DNA from: Actinomycetota bacterium
Lineage (GTDB): Bacteria > Actinomycetota > Aquicultoria > Aquicultorales > Aquicultoraceae
DNA length: 46,873 nt
Assembly: GCA_030018005.1 (NCBI GenBank)
Contig: JASEGT010000008.1
Location: 1 to 46,873 of the forward strand
Direction: 5' to 3'
Positions 8,923 to 39,330 of this stretch are shown one piece after another. Numbering within the stretch: the first letter of the stretch is position 1; every line of letters starts with the position of its first letter. Position numbers and translations under genes: made by a program. The notes beneath the pieces are model-generated. The model saw only the letters and a list, made by a program, of their open reading frames with translations, ran no database searches and was not told the origin of the DNA.

Positions 8923-9210
8923 CGCGAGAGAAAATTGGGCTTCTGCTTAGCTGACCTGGTCTTTGACCCCACACTCGCCTGCTGGAGGCCTCGCAGCCGT
9001 TTTAGAGCCACTAATACCCCTCTCGTCCTCCTGGAACGGCAGGGCTTACTCCTAAGACGCACCATGCTCAACAAAAGTCAGATATAGATAGCTTTTGCCT
9101 TACGTGGATCCTTTTGCCTGCATCTAGCTTGGATTATCCGGCGCAGCACTAGGCGGCGCCGGGGCAACCACAGACCTAAACAGAAACCCAAAGTCATAAC
9201 CTACCTGATT
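8923..9210. other. 288-bp convergent gap without a recognised gene
   Basis: It lies between the 3' ends of the AEC transporter gene and comF, where only terminators are expected. I see no coding frame and no clear terminator. The content is GC-rich with several short complementary tracts (for example GGTC and GACC on the minus strand near 8960), but no known RNA family could be named. Confidence 0.4.
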
Positions 9211-31574: not shown

Positions 31575-33710
31575 ATGCAGATAACACGCGAACTGATAAA
31601 GCTGATGAGTAAAAAGGGATACGCGCCGCAGGACTTGGACGGGCTGGCGGCCGAACTTCATCTTCCGGGCGTAGACAAGCATGATATAAAGAAAGCCCTG
31701 GGCTTGCTCGAAGCCGAAGGGAAAGTCCTACAGACGAAGAAGGGCAAGTATGCATTGCCGGCGCAGCTCGATTTGGTAATCGGCGAGCTTCTGGCGAACA
31801 AGGCCGGATATGGTTTTGTAAAGACTCCCATCGGCGATGTTTTTGTTCCGGCGAGCAAGATAAACGGGGCCATGCACGGCGATAAGGTCGCTATTCGTAT
31901 TTCGCGAAGAAAGACCAGGCAGGGTCCGCGGAGTGAGGGCGAGATAGCGCGCATATTGGAGAGGGCTTATGAGGCGGTTGTCGGGCGTTATGAGCGGCAC
32001 GGCAAGATAAGTATAGTGGTACCGTCAGACAAGCGCATACAGTACCAGGTCTTTGTTCACAGAAACGATGCCATCGACGCGAAGGACGGGGACATGGTCG
32101 TCGCTAAAATACTCGAATACCCGGACGGAGTGCGCGCGGCGCGCGGGAGCATTATCGAGATAATCGGCGATGAGACGTCGCCGACGATAGAGATAGACGT
32201 CATCGTCCGCGAACATAATTTGAGCACGGAGTTTACACTGGCGACCATGGCCGAAGCCGAATCGGTGCCCGAAAGCGTCATAGTGGCCGATACGATAGGG
32301 CGCAAAGACTATCGCGGTGTTTTTACGGTAACGATAGACGGGCTCGACGCTAAGGATTTCGATGATGCCATCAGCATCAGGCGCGATAATAACGGTCATT
32401 TCCACCTTGGCGTACATATTGCCGACGTCTCTCATTACGTGGGCATCGGCAGTGCGCTTGACCAGGAGGCATACGAGCGCGCGACCAGCGTCTACCTGGC
32501 CGACCGGGTGTTGCCGATGTTGCCGCATAAGCTCTCCAACAATATTTGCAGCCTCAATCCGCGCGTAGACAGGTTGAGTCTCTCTGTTGAGATGGTCGTC
32601 GATGAGAGCGGTGAGGTCGGCGATTTCGAGATATTCAACGGGGTGATAAACAGCGATTACCGACTGACCTATGAGCAGGTTGACGAGGCGTTTGCGACAG
32701 GGGTTTTCCCGGATGCGGACGTTCGCGACCTTCTAGTCTCGATGCGCGAGCTGAGCGATGTTCTCGAAGGTAAGCGCCTAAGGCGGGGGAGCCTCAATTT
32801 CGAGACTATCGAGCCGAAGGTGATTCTCGACGCGAATCTCAGACCCTTAGAGGTCATAGTCCGGGAGCGTACCGCCGCGACCAAGCTTATCGAGGAGGCG
32901 ATGATTCTCACCAATGAGACGGTGGCCGGCTTTATGTATTGGCAGGATGCGCCGATGGTCTATCGCGTCCACGACAAGCCCAACGAGGAGAGCCTCGTCC
33001 AGATAGAGGAACTCATCGAGAATCTTCATTATCCGGTCAAGAAGCTCAAAGGGGCGCATCCGAGGATAATCCAGCAGATAATCACGCACGCGCACAACAG
33101 ACCGGAGAAGTTGCTCATAAACAACCTCTTGCTGCGGGCGATGAAGCGGGCGAAATACACGCCGTCGAGCATGCTCCACTTCGGGTTGGCTTCACAGAAT
33201 TATACCCATTTTACCTCGCCAATCAGGCGCTATCCCGACCTCATCGTCCACCGGCTGGTCAAGGCTACACTCGAACAGAGTTTATCCGAGCCCGAGCTGG
33301 TAGGCATGGTCGATAGTCTCGTCGAGATTTGCGAGCATAGCTCCTACATGGAGCGCGAAGCCGACGACGCCTCGCGCGAATCGGTCGATGTCAAACTCTG
33401 TGAGCTTATGAAGGCGCATATCGGAGAGGAATTCGATGGGACGATAACGGGTGTCGCGGGATATGGATTCTTTGTTCAGCTCGCGAACACGGCCGAGGGG
33501 CTCGTGCATATCAAGGATATAACCGACGACTATTACGAATACGATGAGGCTACCTTTACGCTGCTTGGGCGGCGCACGGGGAGGGCGTTTCAAATCGGCC
33601 ACACCGTGCGGGTCCAGATTACGAACGTCGTCATCGGTGAGCGCAGGATAGACTTTGTGCTGGCCGAGGAGGAACAAACCCGCAAGAAACGCTCGAAGAG
33701 GGCAAGATAG
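31575..33710 (+). CDS. rnr: Ribonuclease R
   Basis: 711 residues, typical of RNase R. Order: an N-terminal winged-helix region (LIKLMSKKGYAPQDLDGLAAEL, VLQTKKGKYALP), cold-shock domains (ANKAGYGFVKT, DVFVPASKINGAMHGDKVAIRI), the RNB catalytic domain with DGLDAKDFDDAISIRR (four conserved Asp), the HYVGIGSALDQEAYERATSVYLADRVLPMLP block and HFTSPIRRYPDLIVHR, then a C-terminal S1 domain (GTITGVAGYGFFVQL, AEGLVHIKDI) and a basic tail. It degrades structured RNA 3' to 5' and removes the faulty mRNA in trans-translation with SmpB and tmRNA, which are encoded next. AAGGGGTG precedes the ATG. Confidence 0.96.
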   Translation: MQITRELIKLMSKKGYAPQDLDGLAAELHLPGVDKHDIKKALGLLEAEGKVLQTKKGKYALPAQLDLVIGELLANKAGYGFVKTPIGDVFVPASKINGAMHGDKVAIRISRRKTRQGPRSEGEIARILERAYEAVVGRYERHGKISIVVPSDKRIQYQVFVHRNDAIDAKDGDMVVAKILEYPDGVRAARGSIIEIIGDETSPTIEIDVIVREHNLSTEFTLATMAEAESVPESVIVADTIGRKDYRGVFTVTIDGLDAKDFDDAISIRRDNNGHFHLGVHIADVSHYVGIGSALDQEAYERATSVYLADRVLPMLPHKLSNNICSLNPRVDRLSLSVEMVVDESGEVGDFEIFNGVINSDYRLTYEQVDEAFATGVFPDADVRDLLVSMRELSDVLEGKRLRRGSLNFETIEPKVILDANLRPLEVIVRERTAATKLIEEAMILTNETVAGFMYWQDAPMVYRVHDKPNEESLVQIEELIENLHYPVKKLKGAHPRIIQQIITHAHNRPEKLLINNLLLRAMKRAKYTPSSMLHFGLASQNYTHFTSPIRRYPDLIVHRLVKATLEQSLSEPELVGMVDSLVEICEHSSYMEREADDASRESVDVKLCELMKAHIGEEFDGTITGVAGYGFFVQLANTAEGLVHIKDITDDYYEYDEATFTLLGRRTGRAFQIGHTVRVQITNVVIGERRIDFVLAEEEQTRKKRSKRAR

Positions 33711-33812: not shown

Positions 33813-34280
33813 ATGAAAACGGAAAGAATCGCGGCCAAAAACAGAAAAGCATATCATGATTACCATATCGATGAGACCTACGAAGCGGGAATCGAGCTTA
33901 AAGGCTCAGAGGTCAAGTCGATTCGCGCCGGTAAAATCAATCTGAGGGATAGTTACGCGCGCATCGACGATGGCGAGATGTGGCTATTTAATGTCCACAT
34001 AAGCCCCTATAGCCATGTAGATAAATTTACGCAGCCCGACCCGATTCGGCCCCGCAAACTGCTGTTGCACAAGAAAGAGATACTGCGCCTGATAGGGAAG
34101 ACAAAAGAGAAGGGTTATACGCTCATACCTCTCAAGGTCTATTTTAACAACCGCGGAAAGGCGAAGGTCGAGATAGGGTTGGCAAGGGGTAAGCTTCTCC
34201 ACGATAAACGCAAGGATATCTCCGAGCGTACCGCGAAACGCGACATCGAGCGCGCGCTCCGCGAGCGGCAGAAACAGTAG
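33813..34280 (+). CDS. smpB: SsrA-binding protein SmpB
   Basis: 155 residues. Conserved blocks: AAKNRKAYHDYHIDETYEAGIELKG reading into SEVKSIRAGKINLRDSYA, the HISPYSHVD loop, DPIRPRKLLLHKKEI, TLIPLKVYFN, and the basic C-terminal tail (KVEIGLARGKLLHDKRKDISERTAKRD) that enters the empty mRNA channel. SmpB delivers tmRNA to stalled ribosomes. No Shine-Dalgarno sequence precedes the ATG; a perfect extended -10 lies so close that leaderless expression is likely. It lies between rnr and the tmRNA gene, a compact trans-translation cluster. Confidence 0.96.
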   Translation: MKTERIAAKNRKAYHDYHIDETYEAGIELKGSEVKSIRAGKINLRDSYARIDDGEMWLFNVHISPYSHVDKFTQPDPIRPRKLLLHKKEILRLIGKTKEKGYTLIPLKVYFNNRGKAKVEIGLARGKLLHDKRKDISERTAKRDIERALRERQKQ

Positions 34281-34321
34281 GGTCGAGCGCTTGGTATGCT
34301 GAGCGTGAGAGCGCTGGTCCA

Positions 34322-34350
34322 TTTACAGCGGAAGCTTAATTCTATATAAT
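34322..34350 (+). promoter_or_regulatory. tmRNA promoter
   Basis: TTTACA (34322-34327), exactly 17 bp, then TATAAT (34345-34350): a near-consensus housekeeping promoter. Transcription would start near 34357, about 55 nt before the mature 5' end of tmRNA, leaving a leader to be removed by RNase P. Confidence 0.8.
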
Positions 34351-34411
34351 TTACATAGGGTTTTGTACATTGAAAAATGCGCCGGTGGTTAATATCGCCG
34401 GCCAAAAATAT

Positions 34412-34990
34412 GGGGGCGACAGGCTTCGACTGAGGTTGGTTTCGGCAAGAGAAGCGAGTCGAGCTCAGACAACTCGTTAAACTATCTGACAAAAAACAAA
34501 CGCAAACGAACCAGTTGCACTAGCCGCTTAATTGTGGCTCGTCAAACTAGAGATTGCTCACATCTCTAGGGCGACGTCATTTTAGTGAGCTCACTTCACC
34601 CGGACGCCCATAAGGGTTGAAGAAAATCTCATGGGATAGCGACCGGTTTACCCTGACTGTGGGGATGCCGGAAGCGAATAACAAACATAGTCTACGCTCG
34701 TAGATGCTCTTGTGGAAATGCCTGAGGACGTGGGTTCGATTCAGAAATGGGGTCGCCGGTAGCGGTAACGCTACCAGGAAAAACAAGGCTTACATCGGTG
34801 AAATCTAAGTTCGAGAGAATAAGGCAACGCCGAGGGGTGAAAGCCCTCTAGAGACTTATGTAGGAGTCTTGCCAAGTAGGTAAATCTATGGCTCTTACTA
34901 TACGCCTTGCACCGCACTATAAGAAAAATGCGGTTGAAGACATAGTCCAGTCCTTTCGGAAACGTTAGGGTAGCTGTCCCACCGCCTCCA
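34412..34990 (+). ncRNA. ssrA: tmRNA, interrupted by a group I intron in the T-loop
   Basis: The 5' end GGGGGCGACAGGCTTCGAC is the tmRNA signature. The acceptor stem pairs 34412-34418 with 34983-34989. The tag frame starts at GCA 34502 and reads ANEPVALAA followed by TAA (34529-34531), a normal proteolysis tag ending in LAA. Pseudoknot-rich sequence follows. The tRNA-like T-arm is split: GTGGGTTCGAT ends at 34740 and TCCCACCGCCTCC resumes at 34977. Joined, they give a 5-bp T-stem and a 7-base T-loop (TTCGATT). Mature length without the intron would be about 343 nt, standard for tmRNA. CCA is not encoded. Function requires splicing of the intron. Confidence 0.95.
34741..34976 (+). mobile_element. 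Group I intron (236 nt, no internal ORF) in the tmRNA T-loop
   Basis: The full catalytic core can be paired. P1: exon CGAT with GTCG (34752-34755), ending in the required U-G pair at the 5' splice site. P2: GGTAGCG-GTAA-CGCTACC. P3: CAAGGCT (34784-34790) with AGTCTTG (34865-34871). P4: CGGTG (34796-34800) with CGCCG (34828-34832). P5: a hairpin with GAGA tetraloop. P6: GAGGG with CCCTC. P7: GACTTATGT (34853-34861) with ACATAGTC (34940-34947) and one bulged base. P8: hairpin 34872-34891. A further ACCGCA/TGCGGT hairpin and P9 (TCC-TTTC-GGA) follow. The last intron base is G (34976), as required. All elements are intact, so it should self-splice. Group I introns at this T-loop site have been reported in other tmRNA genes. 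Confidence 0.93.
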
Positions 34991-34992
34991 CA

Positions 34993-35025
34993 AAAATAGG
35001 CCGCCTTTTATGGGTGGCCTATTTT
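34993..35025 (+). terminator. tmRNA terminator
   Basis: AAAATAGGCCGCC pairs with GGTGGCCTATTTT (35013-35025, one G-T pair) around a 7-base loop and ends in a T-run. It begins three bases after the tmRNA 3' end, and the following gene's ATG lies directly after it. Confidence 0.85.
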
Positions 35026-35026
35026 A

Positions 35027-35833
35027 ATGTTTGTTAATAGAACATATGTTCGGTATTATGATGTTATGGAAACCACACTCGTAAGGAATTGCCAGCAATG
35101 TGGCATAGCATTTAAAGCGCCATTGAGGGAGCTCAAGCGTGGTAACGCTAAGTTCTGCTCAAGAAGTTGTTCAGCAGCTTTTGGAAATCAAGTACGAAAG
35201 AAAGAGCAGGTCTCCAATCTAATATGTCATAAGTGTGGCCATGAGTTCTATCGTAAGCCTTCATTGAATAGATCAAGGACTAACTATTGCTCTGAGTGGT
35301 GCTTCAGGGAAGCATCAGGGCGCGCTTTTTCCAAAGGAGAGATTCTCCGTCTGATTCAGGATTTTGTTGATAAGCAGGGACGCATACCAACTCAAGTGGA
35401 GTTCTCTCGCAAGAGAGGTTGGCTAAACCCGAGCACGGTAGTTGGCCATTTTGGCTCATGGAACAAGGCAATTGCAGAGGCCGGCTTTCAACCTAATTCA
35501 GCGTCGATAGGCTATATGTGTTTTGCCAGAGATGGTCATCTTTGCAGGTCTTACAGTGAATTACTGATAGACGATTGGCTTACGGATAATGGAATCGGCC
35601 ATGATAAAGAAGTTAAGTATCCAGGCAGCAGATTGGTAGCCGACTGGAAGGTCGGAAATATTTTTATTGAATATTTAGGAATCGATATGCAAAGGGACAA
35701 TGCGATCAGCCGTAATTATCTTGAAACGCTGGAGCGCAAGAGAAGGATTTGCCTGGCCTTAGGCGTGAGATTGCTGGAAATAAGGCCTTTCGATTTAAAC
35801 AGTATCGAAATAGAGATGTTTCGTTATACCTAG
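35027..35833 (+). CDS. Homing-endonuclease-like protein: two zinc fingers, HARE repeat and PD-(D/E)XK-like nuclease domain
   Basis: 268 residues. Two zinc-finger-like motifs come first: C22-C25-C44-C48 and C67-C70-C88-C92 (each ending in a C-S-x-x-C type pair). Residues about 104-154 match the homing-endonuclease-associated repeat (ILRLIQDFVDKQGRIPTQVEF, HFGSWNKAIAEAGF). Residues about 174-256 resemble a PD-(D/E)XK nuclease: E178 in SYSELLIDDWL, D206 in VADW, E215 in FIEYLG and a later K238. This set is characteristic of intron-associated nucleases. It lies wholly outside the intron, 37 bp after the tmRNA 3' end, overlapping no exon. No ribosome binding site is visible before ATG 35027; ATG 35066 is another possible start. 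Its target is probably the tmRNA T-loop sequence. Confidence 0.75.
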   Translation: MFVNRTYVRYYDVMETTLVRNCQQCGIAFKAPLRELKRGNAKFCSRSCSAAFGNQVRKKEQVSNLICHKCGHEFYRKPSLNRSRTNYCSEWCFREASGRAFSKGEILRLIQDFVDKQGRIPTQVEFSRKRGWLNPSTVVGHFGSWNKAIAEAGFQPNSASIGYMCFARDGHLCRSYSELLIDDWLTDNGIGHDKEVKYPGSRLVADWKVGNIFIEYLGIDMQRDNAISRNYLETLERKRRICLALGVRLLEIRPFDLNSIEIEMFRYT

Positions 35834-36111
35834 TTTAGAAGCAGCACGGTTTCCAACACAGGACTCGTTGCTCTAAGAATTGCCAAAATAGCTGCTTCAG
35901 CCACTGATACTGCTCATAGCAGGGTATTCCTCCGAACGCGCGTTCATGCGCAACCGGCTCTGGCTTCAGAACCGGCACTCATCTTCGCGTTCTGCGTGTC
36001 TGTCTCGTCATATTCTTTAAGGTTTTTCTCTGAAGACCGATATTTTTAGAGTAACAGCAAAGCTCTAGTAGGTATCGATCAGCAGTTCTATGAACGGCGG
36101 GGAGACGACCA

Positions 36112-39100
36112 TTGCAGGAACGTTATGATTTTCTCGAAAAATTATTGGAAAATTCGGCGGTGGCGACCTTCGTTATCGATAGAGATCATAAGGTCATCTT
36201 CTGGAACGGAGCCTGCGCAAAATTAACCGGCTTAAGCAAATCTGAGGTCATTGGAACGAGCGATCACTGGAAAGCGTTTTACAGTCACCGGCGGCCGTGC
36301 TTGTCGGATATTGTGGTCGACGGGGATTATCACGAACTCCCGAATTTCTTTACAACATACGGCGAATCGAAGCTCGTACCCGGCGCTGTGAGTGCGGAGA
36401 CATGGTACGAGGACATGGGAGGCCGGACAAGGTATGTCTTCTTCGAAGCCGCACCTGTCTGTGACGCAAAAGGCGAGTTAATCGCTGCAATAGAGACATT
36501 GCAGGACTTCACCGAACACAAGAAAGTCGAAGAGGCTCTTGAGGATGAACGAAGTTTCAATGCGGCGGTGTTAGAGACGGCGGGCGCGATTGTGGCCGTA
36601 CTCGACCAGGATGGCCGTATCGCACAATTCAACCGCGCCTGCGAGCAAGCGACAGGCTACACGTTCGAAGAGGTGCGCGGAGAATATGTGTTCGACCTCT
36701 TGATTCTGCCGGAAGAGAGAGAGGACGTTGAGCGTGTATTTCAAAACCTGAAAGCGGGCATGTTCCCCAACACCTATAAGAATTATTGGCTGACCAAGGA
36801 TGGCAGTCGGCGCCTCATCGCATGGTCAAATACTGCGTTGGTCGGGCACGATGGGAATGTTGAGTGGGTCATTGCTACCGGAATCGATATTACAGAGAAT
36901 TATAAGGCCGAAGAAGAATCGACCCTCAAATCCCTGCTTCTTGATTGCGCGAAGGACGCGGTCGTCGTCCATGACTTTGAGGGAAATCATATCTACGTAA
37001 ATGAAGCTGCCTGTAAACAAAGAGGTAAGACGCGCGAAGAGCTTCTCAACATGTCCGTTAAAGACTTCATCCCTCCCAAGCTCGCGCATCAGTTCGACGA
37101 GAGAATCGAATTATTGAAGAAGAACCGCAGCTTGGTCTTCGAATCGTTTCACACAAAACCGGACGGGACTTTGTTTTACGTTGAGGTCTATGCCGGTGTT
37201 ATCGAGTTTCAAGGTGAAGATGTGGTCATCTCTATAGCGCGCGACATTACCGACCGTAAGGATTCTGAAAGATTGCTCAAAGAGAGCGAGGAACGCTACC
37301 GTCGGCTTATTGAATTATCCCCAGTTGCGCTAGCCGTCCATAGCGGTGGAAAGGTCGTCTACGCTAACGCGGCGGCAGCGAAGCTCCTTGGCGCCTCGAA
37401 ACCTGCTGAACTCATTGACAAACCGGTTCTCAGCTTTGTCCACCCCGAAGACCATGCTCTAGTAAAAGAGCGGATTTCTCTGATGATGCAGGGCAATGAG
37501 GTCGATCTAACCGAAGAAAGGTTTGTCCGTCTCGATGGCGGGATAATAGATGTCGAGGTAGCGGCCTCTCCGATTATGTACAACGGCAAGCAGGCCATCC
37601 AAGTCACAGTCAGGGATGTGACCGAGCACAGACAAGCGTTGGCCGCTGTCGTGGAGGCGAAAGAGCGGGTGGAACAGCTCTACCGCGTCATGCCGAGTGC
37701 TGTTTTCACCGTCGACCGCGAGTCTCTTATCACTAGTTTCAACGATAAAGCTGTTCAGATAACCGGCTATGAGGCGTCCGAGATAATCGGCCGGAAGTGC
37801 TCGGAATTCGCGCTTGAACCCTGCACTAACAAATGTGGCCTGTTCTCGTCGGACGTACAAAAACCGATTATGGGCAGGGAGTGTACAATACGCCGCAAGG
37901 ACGGCGAAATCCGGACACTCTCGAAGAACGTGGATGTAGTTCGCGACGCCGACGGCAACGTAATCGGCGGCGTTGAGAGTTTTGAGGATATCACCGAGCG
38001 TAAGCATGCCGAAGAGATGCTCAACTATATGGCATTTTATGACCTGCTTACTGATTTGCCCAACCGCACACTGCTGTCCGACCGGCTTATCCTAGCTATC
38101 GCCAACGCTCATCGCAGCGGCAATATGATGGCCTTGCTCTTCCTTGACCTAGACAGGTTCAAGACGATAAACGACACGCTTGGCCACACCGTCGGCGACA
38201 AATTACTCCAGCAGGTAGCCGACCGGCTCAAAGGGTGCCTTCGCGAAGGGGATACCATAGCCCGCCTTGGCGGCGATGAGTTTACGTTGCTCTTGCCGCA
38301 GATAGTGACGGTTGATGACGCGACAAGTGTTGCACAGAAAATAATCGATGTTTTGAAGCCACCGTTTGGCTTCGATGGCCGGGAACTTCATATAACGACG
38401 AGCATCGGTATCGCGCTCTATCCGAGTGACGGTAAAGACGTCCAGTCGCTCTTGAAGAACGCGGACATCGCGCTATACCGGGCCAAGGAGCAGGGCAGGA
38501 ACAATTACCAGCTCTACACGCCGTTGATGAACGCCGAAGCGTTCGAGCGGCTGGCGATGGAAGTCAGTATGCGAAAAGCGCTTGAACGCCAGGAGTTCGT
38601 GGTCTATTACCAACCGCAAGTAGATTTGAAGACCGGAGCGATAATCGGTATGGAAGCCCTTATTCGCTGGATGCACCCGGATTTAGGTCTGGTCTACCCG
38701 GCGGAGTTTATCCCGATGGCCGAAGAGACGGGCTTGATAGTGCCGATAGGTGAATGGGTGTTGCGTACCGCGTGTGAGCAGAACAAAGCCTGGCAAGACG
38801 CGGGATATGCTCCGATAAGGATGGCCGTCAATTTGTCTTGTCGCCAGTTCCAGCAGGTTGACTTAGCTGAGAGGGTGGCGCGGATTGTAAAAGAGACCGG
38901 CCTCGACCCCAGGTATCTGGAGTTGGAGATAACCGAGAGCGTTCTTATGAAAGACGCCGATGCCGCAGTCGACACACTCAATAAGTTGAAGAAAAAAGGA
39001 ATCTATATTTCAATAGATGATTTCGGCACCGGGTATTCATCCCTTGGATATTTGAAACGGTTTCCGATTGACGTTCTCAAAATAGACCGGTCGTTCATCA

Positions 39101-39330
39101 GGGAGCTGAGTGCCGGAACCGAAGACGCCGCAATTGCCACCGCGATAATAACGGTCGCGCACACCATGAAACTGAAGGCGCTTGCGGAAGGCGTCGAGAC
39201 CTTGGAGCAGCTAGAGCTCTTGAGGTCGCTCAAGTGTGATAGCATGCAAGGCTTTATCTTCAGCCGCCCCGTACCCGCCGAAGAAGCGTCCAGAATATTG
39301 GGCGAGGAGCGCCAGATTCGTGTAGCCTAG
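36112..39330 (+). CDS. Multi-PAS GGDEF-EAL cyclic di-GMP signalling protein
   Basis: 1072 residues, no clear membrane span. About five PAS domains occupy residues 1-640 (repeats of [95 protein letters not shown]), the first and fifth with Cys-containing or long loops. A GGDEF domain follows ([44 protein letters not shown]), with an intact GGDEF signature, then an EAL domain ([49 protein letters not shown]) with its metal and catalytic residues present. It may synthesise or degrade c-di-GMP in response to redox, gas or ligand cues. TTG 36112 has GGGGAG upstream. The 278 bp before it hold nothing recognisable. It may act with the HD-GYP proteins at 12-15 kb. Confidence 0.93.

Follow-up and report, generated by a model that had tools for sequence, protein, structure and literature searches.

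An intron-split tmRNA gene in a Candidatus Aquicultor and the endonuclease-like gene beside it: a putative mobile pair

How does a group I intron that carries no gene of its own come to occupy a tmRNA gene (ssrA), and by what means could it spread? The question reaches beyond a single locus: 883 intron-form tmRNA genes, mostly interrupted at T-loop position 7, have been catalogued in 21 phyla, with introns of 293 nt on average and a smallest intron-form gene of 545 bp (PMC11915505). The homing genes sought in that survey were LAGLIDADG genes inside the intron, present in 4.1%, and about 96% of these widely spread introns have no recognised homing gene (PMC11915505). We analysed one further case in a window of 46,873 nucleotides (contig JASEGT010000008.1), the host of which is a Candidatus Aquicultor (Actinomycetota; its genome is G000 below), in comparison with a set of 36 genomes of the class Candidatus Aquicultoria and a set of 396 genomes of the phylum Actinomycetota. 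A close neighbour is Candidatus Aquicultor primus (G001, contig MELI01000066), of the same class.

The split tmRNA gene

The ssrA gene lies behind smpB on the plus strand, with the following features.

31575..33710, plus: RNase R-like gene upstream of smpB, with RNB and S1 domains
33813..34280, plus: smpB, encoding the tmRNA partner protein (PF01668, E=3.4e-62)
34322..34350, plus: predicted ssrA promoter TTTACA-17-TATAAT (consensus scan, 11/12 positions)
34412..34740, plus: ssrA exon 1, ending at T-loop nucleotide 6 (RF00023; ARAGORN on the in-silico spliced sequence)
34502..34531, plus: tmRNA tag reading frame, ANEPVALAA and stop (ARAGORN)
34741..34976, plus: group I intron of 236 nt, ORF-less, with P7.1 and a terminal G (RF00028; empty site in a congener; covariation)
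34977..34990, plus: ssrA exon 2, comprising the last T-loop base, the 3' strands of T stem and acceptor and the discriminator A, with no encoded CCA (sequence, ARAGORN)
34993..35025, plus: predicted intrinsic terminator of ssrA (consensus scan)

The match to RF00023, the Rfam tmRNA model (34419-34743, 139.9 bits), ends within the T arm, and ARAGORN called no tmRNA in the unspliced window. Once 34741-34976 had been removed in silico, it called a complete tmRNA with the tag ANEPVALAA*, a 5-bp T stem and a 7-nt T loop, the same rejoined arm that the first-pass annotation had drawn from the letters when it proposed, at 34412-34990, a tmRNA gene whose T-loop is broken by a complete group I intron with no ORF. 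The Rfam group I model RF00028 was covered over its full length at 34726-34969 (39.1 bits, E=1e-8 with the stretch alone searched), and in a genome-wide search the same intron was the sole match (E=1.5e-8). It should be noted that 39.1 bits falls below the gathering score of 50, so that the call requires support from relatives.

Such support comes from two sides. The ssrA of the congener G003, the exon 1 of which is 98% identical, reads GGACGTGGGTTCGATTCCCACCGCCTCCAC / GGGTTCGATTCCCACC across the site and has no insert. The second source is an alignment of nine homologous Actinomycetota introns, all at the same site and alignable over the core, on which the hand-drawn P1-P9 structure was paired in 96.8% of 561 cells; both-sided changes occur in 21 of 63 pairs, against 1-8 pairs with the partners slid and a mean of 8.0 after shuffling. 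The covariation stems mostly from P2, P7.1 and P9, with P1, P4, P6 and P7 nearly invariant. The pairing of P1-P9, first judged by eye, was borne out: P1, P2, P3, P4, P5, P6, P7, P7.1, P8 and P9 all form, P1 being CGAU:GUCG with a U.G pair at the splice site, and the covariation-supported core P3-P9, including P7, is that of a group I intron. The fold z-score of the intron is -3.06. The P7.1 hairpin between P7 and P3 we take to suggest a group IA-type intron. Owing to a repeated T, the DNA leaves two options for the boundaries, 34741-34976 or 34742-34977. The former, which is also where the first reading had placed them, was chosen because it ends the intron in G, in line with the terminal-G rule, and gives the 5' splice site its U.G pair: T34740 pairs with the G of the guide GUCG in 9/9 introns, and the final intron base is G34976. 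No ORF of at least 100 aa was found inside the intron.

We therefore regard it as almost certain that a group I intron interrupts ssrA, with T-loop nucleotide 6 before it and nucleotide 7 after it. Its class would make it self-splicing, as has been reported for the tmRNA intron of Clostridium botulinum (PMC2729099); and since only one tmRNA locus of G000 scores above the family cut-off, splicing should be needed for a functional tmRNA. Taken alone the intron is ordinary, a member of the already known intron-form kind of tmRNA: it shares with the known cases the gene and the loop position (the first-pass annotation had rightly noted the site as known from other tmRNAs), the U at -1, the terminal G, P1-P9 with the P7.1 region and the usual absence of an ORF. 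Its 236 nt are short against the mean of 293, but no record, given the 545-bp gene mentioned above. What sets the locus apart from the known cases is the linked endonuclease gene, which stands free of the intron.

The endonuclease-like gene and its promoter

This gene, with a LexA-type box, lies directly downstream of ssrA and had been overlooked in the first-pass annotation.

35031..35059, plus: predicted endonuclease promoter TTGTTA-17-TATTAT (consensus scan; same layout in G001, G008 and G037)
35040..35051, no strand: LexA-type box GAACATATGTTC within the 17-nt promoter spacer, between -35 and -10
35066..35833, plus: free-standing homing-endonuclease-like gene, 255 aa from ATG 35066 or 268 aa from ATG 35027
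35090..35302, plus: two paired-Cys (CxxC) motifs, probable zinc ribbons (C22, C25, C44, C48; C67, C70, C88, C92), invariant in the three intact homologues
35330..35488, plus: HNH_repeat PF18780, a homing endonuclease associated repeat (E=1.4e-12)
35525..35782, plus: PD-(D/E)xK/Vsr-like nuclease domain (E178, D206, E215, K238)

The gene starts 75 bp past ssrA. Its likely start is ATG 35066, the longer mechanical ORF beginning at 35027; as this ATG is only 6 nt past the -10 box, a leaderless message is implied. The protein joins a nuclease domain, with E178, D206, E215 and K238 invariant across nine homologues, to DNA-binding modules including PF18780, in the manner of a homing endonuclease. No convincing sequence match was found for it in the PDB. 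The AlphaFold2 model is weak as a whole (pLDDT 69, pTM 0.40) and better in the nuclease domain, for which the best Foldseek match in the PDB is the catalytic domain of I-Bth0305I (probability 1.00, weak E=9.3e-3, TM 0.62 by target), likewise a multi-domain protein with separate DNA-binding modules. I-Bth0305I belongs to the EDxHD family, which is defined by the active-site motif of that name. This motif was not seen here, there being no H-D pair among the residues invariant in the nine homologues, and the invariant residues come nearer to the PD-(D/E)xK arrangement; the domain is therefore termed PD-(D/E)xK/Vsr-like. Searches of phages and plasmids returned only partial, weak relatives of the protein, and viral contigs hold relatives at the level of domains.

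Between G000 and G001 the dN/dS of the gene is 0.19 overall and 0.13 over repeat and nuclease, with a dS of 0.49 that is similar to the 0.43 of smpB. These rates indicate that purifying selection has kept the gene since the two species split.

The 12-mer GAACATATGTTC has its only perfect genomic copy in this promoter, and the genome's own lexA is preceded by the similar CGAACCTATGTTTG and GGAACATAGTTTTG. The order of -35, box, -10 and ATG is repeated in G001, in G008 (where the core of the box has a single mismatch) and in G037 (CGAACAAGTGTTTG), so that a LexA-type operator is conserved in the endonuclease promoter of four genomes. The motif GAACNNNNGTTC is not enriched genome-wide (30 occurrences against 39 for the control), and the case for LexA accordingly rests on position, conservation and lexA. 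With such an operator, the endonuclease would probably be made once DNA damage has induced the recombination functions.

Downstream of ssrA in G002 and G003 (L003, L005), the promoter, the box and an eight-base stretch resembling the first codons, ATAGAAAC, remain, and the rest is absent as one block; this scar suggests that an ancestor carried the endonuclease gene. A second palindrome, GAACGCGCGTTC (35934-35945), is found where the absent block ends on the right. The 3' ends of ssrA genes commonly serve as sites of genomic islands; this explanation of the extra DNA in G000 and G001 was rejected, the block consisting of the endonuclease gene and about 100 bp, with no integrase. Further downstream, a large PAS-GGDEF-EAL signalling protein is encoded at 36112-39330; the G002 counterpart, likewise multi-PAS, is divergent in the aligned N-terminal part.

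Occurrence of intron and gene in relatives

A tmRNA gene was located in 34 of the 36 genomes of the class and has the intron form in 8 of these 34, which bears out only in part the initial view of the intron as uncommon in this lineage; across the 396 Actinomycetota genomes, the intron was detected in 10 by DNA similarity (E<=1e-6). A profile search of the same 396 genomes found six genes of the endonuclease protein family, all six directly behind ssrA and five of them at an intron-bearing ssrA. The gene is intact in G000, in G001 (82% identical) and in G037 of another class (44-46% identical), and has an internal stop in G004 and G008. The sixth copy, in G014 (L017 / L122), is degenerate (it contains stops, and its nuclease domain is truncated) and stands beside an intron-less ssrA; its genus-mate G025 has the intron, on a contig that stops just past ssrA, so that presence of the gene cannot be judged there. 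The association of intron and gene is strong over the 396 genomes (Fisher p=1.9e-8, relatedness uncorrected) and is found within the class as well, where the gene occurs at 4 of 8 intron-bearing and 1 of 26 intron-less ssrA genes (p=0.007, relatedness again uncorrected). The intron also occurs without the gene, in G002, G005, G009 and G066, and inspection by eye of the translated ORFs behind these four ssrA genes revealed no other endonuclease gene. G003, G006, G007 and G010 have an intact, intron-less ssrA. Among relatives we thus find intron with gene, intron with broken gene, intron only, an empty site and a broken gene only, which are the states of a cycle of gain, decay and loss.

The intron tree and the host tree are largely congruent; transfer between lineages is hence not demonstrated, and recent transfer is not claimed. 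Introns within the genus differ at 2-5 of 236 nt, and the smpB-ssrA spacers at 12-19 of 131 (G000, G001, G002). This low divergence is no proof of recent homing, exon 1 being nearly equally conserved.

Within about 34230-34410, G000 and G003 share an identical 150-nt block, which takes in the smpB end and the larger part of the spacer before ssrA; the remaining congeners show differences at 9-18 sites there, which is a sign of recombination beside ssrA. In P6, the introns of G004 and G009 (L007, L009), which belong to two genera, have related insertions of about 100-200 nt with CAAGAAA repeats; as the two genus-mates of G009 have no intron, this common insertion hints at transfer.

Collaborative homing and its alternatives

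In phages, ORF-less introns are known that have their target in common with a free-standing endonuclease encoded next to them, a relation termed collaborative homing; examples are the psbA intron of S-PM2 with F-CphI and loci of T3/T7-like phages, and the arrangement at the terminase intron of ICP1 has been likened to it (PMC6083498, PMC3984707, PMC10448857). The locus described here has the same layout, an ORF-less group I intron with a free-standing endonuclease gene adjoining the intron-bearing gene. It differs from the phage loci in that it is chromosomal and bacterial, and has a non-coding RNA as its host gene, another nuclease fold and a LexA-type box.

On balance, we favour as probable the reading of intron and endonuclease gene as a case of collaborative homing on a bacterial chromosome with SOS-linked expression. 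The intron would remove itself from the pre-tmRNA with guanosine, rejoining the halves of the T arm. Having no mobility gene of its own, it would be supplied with an endonuclease by the separate gene after ssrA, which the LexA-type box would have expressed under DNA damage. The enzyme probably cuts intron-less ssrA at or near the intron site, the presence of the intron shielding the host's own copy, and repair off an intron-bearing copy could then bring intron and gene together into a new genome. More tentatively, we propose that a tmRNA intron whose internal homing gene was lost, or never existed, would be moved in trans by a free-standing endonuclease that is dedicated to it, SOS-induced and encoded beside ssrA. 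This would be a collaborative-homing element of bacterial chromosomes, its spread timed to DNA damage and its host gene a non-coding RNA.

The confinement of the family to ssrA, with five of six genes at the rare intron-bearing copies, would count for such a mobile pair, as would the mix of relatives in which intron or gene is intact, broken or missing. PF18780, the fold match to I-Bth0305I, the dN/dS of 0.19 and the LexA-type box count in the same direction. Against it would stand the gene remnant of G014 with its intron-less ssrA and the intron without gene in G002, G005, G009 and G066; the agreement of intron and host trees, the weak model outside the nuclease domain, the Foldseek E of 9e-3, the RF00028 score under the gathering value and the lack of genome-wide enrichment of GAACNNNNGTTC also count against it.

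The two distributional objections are at the same time the strength of the main rival, namely that a free-standing homing gene cuts the region downstream of ssrA and spreads only itself (intronless homing), the intron being an old passenger that is occasionally co-converted. It would account for the remnant of G014 and for the four intron-bearing genomes that lack the gene, and congeners with and without the gene do differ by a single clean block behind ssrA. Nevertheless, five of six genes stand at an intron-bearing ssrA despite the rarity of this intron in the phylum, and we consider this rival unlikely. A repair or defence nuclease, SOS-induced, unrelated to homing and placed beside ssrA through vertical descent, would suit the LexA-type box, the purifying selection and the restriction-like or Vsr-like fold; it is quite improbable in view of the homing-endonuclease-associated repeat, the homing endonuclease as best fold match, the repeated decay and loss among relatives and the position of the gene at ssrA in a second class, with nearly all the genomes in between lacking it. 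The first-pass annotation had seen splicing as a possible control point for trans-translation, and an intron domesticated as a regulator, its splicing rate setting the tmRNA supply, might be argued from the single tmRNA locus of G000 and from an intra-genus conservation equal to that of exon 1. The intron behaves as an optional element, however, missing from G003 and several other family members (G006, G007, G010), all with intact ssrA, so that the control-point view is left unsupported; no regulatory element was found, and we hold domestication to be very improbable. That the insert does not splice, being retained or yielding a two-piece tmRNA, is scarcely credible given the covariation over nine genomes and the conservation of P3, P7 and the flanking exons, its one argument being the RF00028 score below threshold.

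For the favoured mobile pair, the literature searched, which covered few subscription papers, so that absence from it is weak evidence, offered by title no clear precedent for LexA with a homing endonuclease and none for collaborative homing at a bacterial chromosomal ssrA or tRNA gene. What may be new sits in the linked endonuclease gene, a more informative feature than the intron. A linked free-standing enzyme offers a testable answer to how tmRNA introns reached 21 phyla and suggests that homing genes be searched for beside ssrA and not inside the intron; should the LexA-type box prove functional, mobility of the intron would be coupled to the cell's recombination state.

Group I introns are frequent in the class Aquicultoria in general: a match occurs in 21 of the 36 genomes, and in a single genome there are as many as five, including one in 23S rRNA (e.g., L050). 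Elsewhere in the window, a raiA RNA, a member of a conserved non-coding RNA family, is encoded at 8942-9184 on the minus strand (RF03072, 161.9 bits, E=7.9e-41).
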